Source: Pelomonas sp. BJYL3 (lineage in GTDB: Bacteria; Pseudomonadota; Gammaproteobacteria; Burkholderiales; Burkholderiaceae_C). From it: DNA of 64,000 nt. Position 1 is the first letter of the stretch. Each line of letters begins with the position of its first letter. The notes beneath the pieces were generated by a model. The model saw nothing but the letters and a program-made list of their open reading frames with translations, was not told where the DNA came from and did not search any database. The DNA lies in NCBI RefSeq assembly GCF_027257975.1, contig NZ_JANZKX010000009.1:62001-126000 (forward strand), in the 5' to 3' direction. Below, piece by piece: positions 34,498 to 38,627 of this stretch. The translations under genes and the position numbers were made by a program.

Positions 34498-34683
34498 TCA
34501 GGCCTCCTGGGACGGGGCCTGGCCGGCCTCGGGACTGGCCGGGCCGGCGTCGTCGCCGTGCGAGGTCTCGTCGCCGCGGCCCTGGGCCTTGCGGGCCTTC
34601 TTTTCAGCGGCTTTTTCTTCGGCCTTGCGCTTCTTGGCCAACTCGCGCTGGCGTTTTTCGTAGGAGTAATTTGGAGTTGCCAA
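34498..34683 (-). CDS. Small basic coiled protein, TTG start
   Basis: A 61-residue protein reading ATPNYSYEKRQRELAKKRKAEEKAAEKKARK after its first codon, then an acidic, glycine/proline-rich tail. The N-terminal half is a single charged helix, strongly basic, of the kind that could bind nucleic acid. I recall similar short proteins next to metG or apbC in Burkholderiales, without a known role. TTG 34683 is chosen because AAGGA lies 7 bp upstream and the conserved-looking sequence begins there. It lies 85 bp upstream of metG on the same strand and borders the DnaA-box region. Confidence 0.65.
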   Translation of the reverse strand: MATPNYSYEKRQRELAKKRKAEEKAAEKKARKAQGRGDETSHGDDAGPASPEAGQAPSQEA

Positions 34684-34790
34684 GGTCCGGTCCTTCGGTC
34701 GCGACGGCAAGTCACCGTCAGACTCGACTGTAGCGCCTCGCCGCCCGACAGGGCCATGAGGGCCTCCGGGCCATGTGCCAAGCCGCTTCA

Positions 34791-34806
34791 GCTTGCGCGC
34801 GCAAGC
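34791..34806. repeat. 16-bp perfect palindrome beside the DnaA-box region
   Basis: GCTTGCGCGCGCAAGC is self-complementary. It lies 35 bp from the first exact DnaA box and is followed by a further partial GCTTGCC copy. Confidence 0.6.
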
Positions 34807-34840
34807 GCTTGCCAGCACAGGGAAAAATGAGGTCCAGGCT

Positions 34841-34849
34841 TGTGGATAA
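34841..34849 (-). other. DnaA box 1 (exact)
   Basis: TGTGGATAA on the plus strand is the complement of the strong DnaA box TTATCCACA. It is extended by GTTTGTGGG. It is the first of three exact boxes. Confidence 0.75.
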
Positions 34850-35016
34850 GTTTGTGGGAAAAAGGCGGGAAAAGAAGCCCTGAATGCCATTGACCAAGCC
34901 GCCGTCCGGCCTGCATTTGCCCGGGATGTCAAAAAAATCCATATGGATCAATGGCTTGCGAAGGCTCTGGAGTGGCCGCTGCGGCGCGCTCGCGCAGAAG
35001 GCCAGATGCCCGCCAT

Positions 35017-35025
35017 TGGGGATAA
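35017..35025 (-). other. DnaA-like box (one mismatch)
   Basis: TGGGGATAA is the complement of TTATCCCCA, one base from the DnaA consensus. It lies 176 bp from box 1, and the same variant recurs at 35409. Confidence 0.45.
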
Positions 35026-35208
35026 GCCCGACGGCGCTTCGAGCGCTGTGTCAATTGGCGGCAGCCATGGCGCCGAACGGCGGGGCTCTTTGAGCCCCTG
35101 CGCCGGAGGGGCTGGTCACAGAACTTGGCGCATTGAGCTCAAGTATCTTGGAGGGATGGTGTCCAAGTCATTGATTAAACAGGACTAATGAAAGCTGTCC
35201 ACCGATGC

Positions 35209-35217
35209 TGTGGATAA
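35209..35217 (-). other. DnaA box 2 (exact)
   Basis: TGTGGATAA followed by GTTTGTGGA, almost identical to box 1 and 368 bp from it in the same orientation. Confidence 0.75.
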
Positions 35218-35408
35218 GTTTGTGGAGAAGCTGGGTCCCCGAGCCCTAAATGCTTGATTCATCGACGGCGGAGCTGGGTTGCCTCAAATTTTTGCACTTC
35301 GATGACGGTCATATGAATCAATGACTTGCACGCGCTTTGGGCCAGGCGCGGCCTCTGCCCTGCCAATGGCGGTGTCTTGTTTCTTTCTGGAACGCCGCCC
35401 TGGGACAG

Positions 35409-35417
35409 TGGGGATAA
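35409..35417 (-). other. DnaA-like box (one mismatch)
   Basis: A second TGGGGATAA followed by G, in the same relative place within the second repeat unit as the copy at 35017 in the first. Confidence 0.45.
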
Positions 35418-35563
35418 GTCAAGCCCGCCGCAGCCTGGGTGTGCGCAGATCAAGGCCGGGCGTGTGCTCCAAATGGGGGACATACAGGACGCAGGCAGGC
35501 CGCCCGGTGGCCTAGCGGGCCGCCGCTGATGGCGCCATGGACTGGGCAGACATCCCCAGCGGC

Positions 35564-35572
35564 TGTGGATAA
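35564..35572 (-). other. DnaA box 3 (exact)
   Basis: TGTGGATAA followed by ATTTGTGAG, 355 bp from box 2 and about 180 bp upstream of minC. Confidence 0.72.
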
Positions 35573-35730
35573 ATTTGTGAGTCCGCTGGAGAAAGCCGCG
35601 CTAAGTCCTTGATGTCATTGCAGATGTCTTGCGCTGCTCAAGATTTGAGCAGGTTCGGCATGGCGCCAGCGGCTGGTGCTCGCGCCCTGGCATGCGGGGG
35701 AACGCCGAGGGGCGGACCTGAACTGGCGGC

Positions 35731-35736
35731 TAAAAT
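35731..35736 (+). promoter_or_regulatory. Candidate -10 element of minC
   Basis: TAAAAT followed by CGC lies 18 bp before the minC ATG. The same GCTAAAATCGC context appears upstream of yebC. No good -35 is visible, and the implied leader would be about 10 nt. Confidence 0.35.
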
Positions 35737-35753
35737 CGCGCGATTTGCAGCCA

Positions 35754-36638
35754 ATGGCCGTATTCATGGGGCAGGGAACCGTTTCGCAGCAATCCGCACA
35801 GCAGTCGCCAGACCGGCCGGGACGATCCGCTCAAGGCAGGGACTCGGCCGCCGTTGAGGTGTTCGAGCTCCGCAGCGCATCCATCGCCGCCTTCAGCCTG
35901 GTGCTGCGCAGCCCGGACCTGCAGCAGCTGGCGCAGGCCCTGCAGGAGCGCCTGGGTGACACGCCCGAGGTCTTCAACCAGGATCCGGTGGTGCTCGACC
36001 TCAGCCAGCTGCCCGCCCCGCCCCAGGCGGCCGACGACGGCCAGCTGAGCCTGGAGTCCGCCGCCGTCCAGCTGGATTTCCCCGCCCTGGTGGCCCTGCT
36101 GCGGCGCTTCCGCATGCAGGCGGTGGCCGTCAGCGGCGCCACGGTCGAGCAGCTGGCTGCTGCGCAGGCCGCCGGCCTGGCGGAGGCCGATGTCCCCGCG
36201 CAGCGTGCCGAGGCGCCGCGGGTGGAGACCGTGGTCAAGGAGGTGGTGCGCGAGGTGATCGTCGAGCGTGAGGTGCCTGTGCCTGCCGCGCCGGCCGAGC
36301 CCAGCCGCACCGTCATCGTCGACAAGCCGCTGCGCTCCGGCCAGCAGATCTATGCCAAGGGCGCCGACCTGGTGGTGATGGCGCTGGTGAACCATGGCGC
36401 CGAGGTCATCGCCGACGGCAACATCCATGTCTACGCGCCCCTGCGTGGCAAGGCGATTGCCGGGGCCCGTGGCAATACCGAAGCCCGCATCTTTGCAGCC
36501 AGCCTGGAGGCTGAGCTGATCGCCATTGCCGGCATCTACCGCACCACCGAGAACCCTCTGCCCGCCGAGGTGCTGGGCAAGCCGGCGCAGGTCCGGCTGG
36601 AGGGCGAGAAGCTGGTGATGGAAGCCTTGAAACTCTGA
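35754..36638 (+). CDS. minC: Septum-site determining protein, FtsZ inhibitor
   Basis: MinC blocks FtsZ ring formation away from midcell and is recruited to the membrane by MinD. The 294-residue protein has an N-terminal FtsZ-binding domain (FELRSASIAAFSLVLRSPDLQQLAQALQERLG), a proline/valine linker with a VVKEVVREVIVEREVPVPAAP stretch, and the C-terminal beta-helix domain (RSGQQIYAKGADLVVMALVNHGAEVIADGNIHVYAPLRGKAIAGARGN). The ATG at 35754 is chosen from similarity; 35766 is an alternative, and neither has a clear ribosome site. It heads minC-minD-minE and lies directly right of the DnaA-box region. Confidence 0.95.
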   Translation: MAVFMGQGTVSQQSAQQSPDRPGRSAQGRDSAAVEVFELRSASIAAFSLVLRSPDLQQLAQALQERLGDTPEVFNQDPVVLDLSQLPAPPQAADDGQLSLESAAVQLDFPALVALLRRFRMQAVAVSGATVEQLAAAQAAGLAEADVPAQRAEAPRVETVVKEVVREVIVEREVPVPAAPAEPSRTVIVDKPLRSGQQIYAKGADLVVMALVNHGAEVIADGNIHVYAPLRGKAIAGARGNTEARIFAASLEAELIAIAGIYRTTENPLPAEVLGKPAQVRLEGEKLVMEALKL

Positions 36639-38448: not shown

Positions 38449-38627
38449 GCGGACGGGGCTTGGGCTGACAAACCGTCGATTATCTCGTCTGCCACTCCGA
38501 GATCCCTGCCTGTTTTTAGAGCAGGGCAACAAAGTCCGTGAAGAAACAAGCACTTGCCGCATTGCTGCAGAGGCCGTGCACGGACTTGTCCACAGGCGCT
38601 GTGGATGCCTGGGCTCTGCCGGCGGCC
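38449..38627. other. 179-bp spacer with a degenerate inverted DnaA-like pair
   Basis: TTGTCCACA (38586-38594) and TGTGGATGC (38600-38608) face each other across 5 bp; each is close to the DnaA consensus. No gene or terminator is evident in the spacer. Confidence 0.35.

Follow-up and report, generated by a model that had tools for sequence, protein, structure and literature searches.

An array of boxes for DnaA, the initiator of chromosome replication, lies in the gene-free stretch between metG and minC of Pelomonas sp. BJYL3. What is such an array for? The first-pass annotation had left two answers standing, a displaced chromosomal origin or a locus of the datA or DARS kind. Our analysis of the window (the whole 64-kb stretch of DNA), of the strain's genome and of related genomes favors the DARS part of the second answer, based on the three-box geometry of Escherichia coli DARS1 and DARS2, on IHF sites and on conservation in relatives. 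Judged by sequence, the metG-minC region is probably a DnaA-reactivating locus of the DARS type whose double core resembles that of DARS2, a reading to which we assign a probability of roughly 0.78.

Boxes, cores and IHF sites between metG and minC

By ORF reading, the region that holds the array, from metG to minC (about 34690-35765), is indeed free of genes. Pfam analysis identifies its neighbors as metG (PF09334) and minC (PF03775, PF05209), the latter followed by a MinD-type ATPase, in line with the genes named before. A short Lys-rich ORF without Pfam match is found between metG and the array (34501-34686, - strand).

Five TTATCC[AC]CA sites are packed into 0.73 kb of the window, all of them on the - strand. 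Three are exact TTATCCACA boxes, representing box II of units 1, 2 and 3 (34841-34849, 35209-35217 and 35564-35572), and two are exact TTATCCCCA boxes, representing box IV of units 1 and 2 (35017-35025 and 35409-35417). No other TTATCC hexamer occurs on either strand of the whole window, in which 0.10 TTATCCMCA sites are expected per 64 kb; the number five was reached in none of 100 dinucleotide shuffles. The positions and the spacings of 176, 192, 200 and 155 bp agree with the first-pass annotation. The 16-bp palindrome it mentioned is GCTTGCGCGCGCAAGC at 34791-34806, and its AT-rich islands have GC contents of 0.50-0.52 (34800-34949, 35100-35349 and 35550-35649) compared with 0.69 overall. 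Its statement that all boxes share one orientation has to be corrected, as a weak box I at 35195-35203 is reversed (+ strand). This box had been missed together with box III at 35221-35229 and three exact IHF sites.

Unit 2 contains the intact core, in which the weak DARS-type box I (CTGTCCACC, +) is opposed to box II and to box III (TTCTCCACA, -). Written out around 35209, the core consists of CTGTCCACC, 5 bp, TGTGGATAA (box II on the - strand), 3 bp and TGTGGAGAA (box III on the - strand), which we searched for as the core pattern TCCACN6TGTGGATAAN3TGTG. Excerpts of PMC5742627 describe the DARS core as three boxes with a spacing common to DARS1 and DARS2 and with box I reversed; the corresponding 5-bp and 3-bp spacers are present at 35198, where the pattern is exact. 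The other matches in the window have one mismatch (35553) and two mismatches (38579, -), while 0.00 matches with up to three mismatches are expected. In the whole genome the pattern is exact twice, at 35198 and between exbB and xseA.

The IHF consensus WATCAANNNNTTR, as quoted in an excerpt of PMC4585315, is matched exactly at three positions in the window, with 0.08 expected, and all three lie in a 165-bp part of unit 2. These are a left site (35164-35176, -), a middle site (35247-35259, -) and a right site (35316-35328, +). By sequence, unit 2 therefore has predicted IHF sites near its core as DARS2 does, and the genome encodes IHF-β with a score above the family cut-off. Box IV follows at 200 bp from box II.

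The neighboring units are less complete. Unit 1 has a box III-like TTTCCCACA (34853-34861) and an IHF-like site with one mismatch (34946-34958, +) between its boxes II and IV but no recognizable box I, and it looks decayed. Unit 3 comprises a second core (35553-35579, +), which is separated from the first by 355 bp and deviates from the core pattern at one position, and an IHF-like site with one mismatch (35602-35614, -). A further, weak DARS-type core with two mismatches and TTGTCCACA as box II (38579-38605, -) is situated downstream of minCDE, flanked by one ORF with a PF01553 domain and one with a PF00111 domain. Similar cores in relatives (L223-L230) have two mismatches in seven of eight cases and four in one; this core, orientated opposite to the main array, seems to be conserved.

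Conservation before minC and related elements elsewhere

The closest named MinC matches come from Mitsuaria sp. WAJ17 (94% identity) and Roseateles subflavus (87%), which suggests a Roseateles-like genome of the order Burkholderiales. Among the 18 closest MinC loci (L010-L027, MinC identity 48-94%), 16 keep the boxes before minC; they are absent before minC in L023 and L026, and also in L028 and L029. Of the MinC loci up to L053, the scan for boxes covered L010-L029. In the 16 loci with the element the first core is exact in 14 and has one mismatch in 2. All but L014 (15 of 16) also have another core 254-358 bp further on, oriented the same way and with no more than two mismatches. The first-pass annotation had proposed a search of related genomes for the box spacing: box IV is located 189-210 bp from box II in all 16 relatives that have the element. 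The element is intergenic, away from the origin and conserved in position among relatives, as expected of a DARS. At least two matches to R1, a sequence-only profile built without E. coli sequence and giving rough E-values, fall within 1 kb at metG-minC in 12 of 16 genomes with the metG-minC element. We took G028, G067, G111 and G077 to be the genomes of L010, L012, L014 and L018, and the counts overlap accordingly; L164 and L212 are one G007 locus.

We aligned 16 sequences, namely 15 metG-minC units and the strain's own priA-hemE unit. Box II is without mismatch in all 16, and the right IHF site is exact in all 16. The left IHF site is exact in eight and has one mismatch in eight, and the middle site is exact in only six. 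Box I deviates from TTWTNCACA by two to three mismatches in the 15 sequences that could be scored. Invariant columns amount to 36 of 66 within the sites vs. 10 of 104 elsewhere, with the sites chosen after viewing the alignment. The earlier description of otherwise diverged units is accurate: constraint is seen at the boxes and IHF sites and in the distances separating them. Of the 20 loci in which the length from box II to box IV could be measured, 19 have 188-192 bp, and the strain's own genome has 199 bp (10 of 30 loci had no match to the strict motif). A Rayleigh value for helical phasing of boxes II and IV merely mirrors these near-equal lengths, and we drew no inference from it.

The exact box TTATCCACA occurs ten times in the whole 5.24-Mb assembly (28 contigs): three times at metG-minC, once just before dnaA, once at priA-hemE, once at exbB-xseA, once before a gene we take to be mnmG-like and three times at other places. 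R1 detects eight places in the genome at E ≤ 0.001 and ten at E ≤ 10. Its weak matches at G000:C1:1000918-1001022, C1:1024514-1024618, C2:2310-2425 and C25:395618-395723 have TTGTCCACA instead of TTATCCACA as box II, and those on C2 and C25 are near-copies of a single sequence. Across the family, 147 of 150 genomes, the strain's own included, have an R1 match somewhere.

These matches recur next to the same genes. Flanking genes were assigned using six of the strain's own proteins for the fetched loci and, for its own paralogues, named from Pfam. Loci L074-L102 (29 in total) comprise 16 at metG-minC (one by MinC only) and 13 at priA-hemE (one by PriA only), and L133-L157 (25 in total) comprise 18 at priA-hemE (two by PriA only), 6 at exbB-xseA and 1 at neither. 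Of a further 20 loci, 13 are at exbB-xseA (one, from G026, by XseA only), 3 at priA-hemE and 4 at none of the three. The core at the 23 distinct exbB-xseA loci is exact in 11 and has one mismatch in 9, two in 2 and three in 1; these paralogues possess the core without an aligned box IV. In a second genome group (L137-L152), the box IV position of the priA-hemE element reads TGTGCATAA (TTATGCACA) instead of TGGGGATAA, altered yet still near a DnaA box. Of 369 genomes sampled from the class, 192 contain the exact core pattern, counted per genome irrespective of gene neighbors; the reversed-pattern control gave 0 among the matches listed.

A mobile repeat is disfavored by the location of the copies at orthologous gene pairs. 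A structured RNA was rejected, the consensus fold having a covariation of -0.05 and a single pair with a double change; Rfam returned nothing at gathering level and one chance-like match (18.9 bits vs. a cut-off of 50).

Proposed reactivation of DnaA and the rival readings

The analysis establishes sites, geometry, conservation and map position at metG-minC, and we infer that DnaA and IHF bind there, that ADP is released and that the timing of initiation is affected. In the intact core (35195-35229), ADP-DnaA would occupy box III and the head-to-head pair of boxes I and II, with the second core (35553-35579) assisting this binding. By bending the DNA at 35164-35328, IHF would give the DnaA oligomer a shape from which ADP leaves. 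The apo-DnaA could then take up ATP, allowing the next round to start at the dnaA-linked origin.

It is unlikely, in our judgment, that the locus is instead datA-like or a plain titration site, where the same-orientation boxes II and IV with IHF between them would bind ATP-DnaA after duplication and thereby lower its activity. Boxes II and IV do flank IHF sites, at the distance conserved in all 16 relatives, just as in E. coli datA an exact IHF site is flanked by two same-orientation boxes at a distance of about 162 bp, and three of the genome's ten exact boxes make up a sizeable share for titration. Yet a DARS-type core is present here as well, and excerpts of PMC5742627 describe the head-to-head pair of boxes I and II as the DARS feature. 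On three stretches of E. coli MG1655, whose sites we read from the genome record, R1 scored 18.5 bits for DARS1 (E 1.5e-5), 15.9 and 13.3 bits for the DARS2 cores and 14.1 bits for datA, hence the profile alone cannot part DARS from datA. The core pattern does: it is exact in DARS1, has two and three mismatches in the two DARS2 cores (rppH-mutH) and five in datA, which is without a three-box head-to-head core. Box IV is not datA-specific, since DARS1 too has TTATCCCCA 209 bp from box II, and the core of the exbB-xseA paralogues has no aligned box IV. Against a DARS speak the weak box I, the middle IHF site that is exact in few aligned sequences, the datA score between both DARS2 scores, the missing box I of unit 1 and the four MinC loci that lack the boxes (L023, L026, L028 and L029).

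Less probable still is a DnaA-controlled promoter region for metG, minCDE or both that links division with replication. The array does lie between divergent metG and minC, its paralogues precede priA or occupy the space between the divergent genes exbB and xseA, and E. coli DARS1 and DARS2 are placed within the uvrB and mutH promoter regions in excerpts of PMC5835720. However, the same element precedes unrelated genes, and what its copies have in common is the three-box and IHF layout rather than a promoter. An extra regulatory role alongside DARS may be compatible with this. DARS-type cores tend to precede repair or replication genes (uvrB, mutH, priA, xseA), metG-minC being an exception.

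DnaA boxes, AT-richer stretches and IHF sites do occur together here, but a displaced chromosomal origin is highly improbable because the sampled skew of the complete relative G007 reverses close to dnaA and again close to the antipode but not at metG-minC, and because metG-minC lies far from dnaA, at 0.70, 0.71 and 0.92 of the way to the antipode in three complete genomes. In G007 (5.32 Mb), dnaA is at 1.52 Mb and metG-minC at 3.38 Mb. Its weak GC skew was sampled in 20 windows of 20 kb each. Most values as far as 1.34 Mb are negative, those between 1.87 and 4.27 Mb are positive, and those at 4.61 and 5.01 Mb are negative again; the two dnaA windows have small opposite values and the window at 0.28 Mb is off-sign. 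Sign changes thus occur near dnaA and between 4.27 and 4.61 Mb. Within our window the skew is positive throughout the region around 35 kb, with no switch and no skew minimum marking a replication start at the array. The first of the two earlier answers is therefore not supported.

The same scale, the fraction of the path from dnaA to its antipode in complete or near-complete genomes (six chromosome lengths rounded), places priA-hemE elements at 0.03-0.37 (median 0.19, n=18) and exbB-xseA elements at 0.05-0.98 (median 0.74, n=17 without G120, which was dropped from 18 candidates as its match L178 had neither flanking gene). Returning to the DARS reading, one can tentatively picture, though we consider it doubtful, that Burkholderiales hold an IHF-bracketed DARS set at fixed addresses, close to the origin at priA-hemE and in the direction of the terminus at exbB-xseA. 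The core would have been duplicated in one clade to the terminus-side metG-minC and amplified there, with box I disappearing from the priA-hemE copy; this would amount to a natural shift of DnaA reactivation along the chromosome. As box IV forms a datA-like pair around IHF, one locus might even switch between reactivating and inactivating DnaA.

Box I (TCCAC) at priA-hemE has on average 3.19 of 5 mismatches in 16 genomes with the metG-minC element vs. 1.42 in 31 others, a group whose members were not each confirmed to be without that element (Mann-Whitney p 8e-4, ignoring phylogeny). Zero or one mismatch is seen in 20 of the 31 others vs. 1 of the 16. The 16 comprise the strain's own and 15 further genomes; 16 with the metG-minC element had been searched, of which G149 had no priA-hemE match at E ≤ 0.01. 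In G007, ATCCACA at priA-hemE is one base out of register. Since a clade effect remains and distant others are decayed too, with 5 of 5 box I mismatches in G004, G120, G128 and G018, the loss of box I is a lead only.

Work on DnaA reactivation has so far dealt with two sites in E. coli; related sites are found again and again at the same gene addresses in a large bacterial family whose members are mostly environmental. If our reading is true, a major bacterial group has an orderly set of IHF-bracketed sites, conserved in place and lying on both sides of the replication cycle, and the effects of site number and map position on initiation timing could be compared across many genomes. Clades with a gained metG-minC array and a decayed priA-hemE core would offer a natural test of position effects.

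Relation to known sites in E. coli and Vibrio cholerae

We found no paper on DARS in Burkholderiales in the open-access literature searched, and the text of PMC4948915 on Burkholderia cenocepacia replication does not mention DARS (term count 0). Excerpts of PMC10380432 state that DARS1- and DARS2-like sequences are conserved in many proteobacterial species. Parts of PMC5742627 place DARS2 in beta- or gamma-proteobacteria near E. coli, whereas parts of PMC4245941 restrict the DARS2 core to E. coli-related gamma-proteobacteria. The kind of element is therefore already known; what appears to be new in the literature searched is its loci, its bracketing by IHF sites and the double core at metG-minC.

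A further comparison is a site on V. cholerae chromosome I, presumably crtS. It differs in acting on RctB and in having no DnaA-box core. It resembles the proposed locus in that it lies outside the origin and promotes initiation; an excerpt of PMC3937223 calls it the chrI site and likens it to DARS.

E. coli DARS1 (bioD-uvrB) consists of TTATCCACT, 5 bp, TGTGGATAA, 3 bp and TGTGTATTA and has exactly the core pattern of the window. The two also share a TTATCCCCA in the same orientation as box II, which near DARS1 (L158:1331-1339 vs. 1122-1130) corresponds to box IV of the window; to our knowledge no role has been assigned to it. In contrast to the window, DARS1 has a single core, and bioD-uvrB contains no IHF site within one mismatch.

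DARS2 of E. coli needs Fis sites. Its locus, rppH-mutH, has two same-orientation cores 316 bp apart, compared with 355 bp in the window, and IHF-like sites lie between the cores in both. Those of rppH-mutH are 3 bp apart, which agrees with the 3-bp gap between IBS1 and IBS2 given in parts of PMC4245941. The window element differs from DARS2 in that it adjoins other genes, has box IV and cores closer to the consensus, and displays three IHF sites, two of which form an inverted pair around the core.
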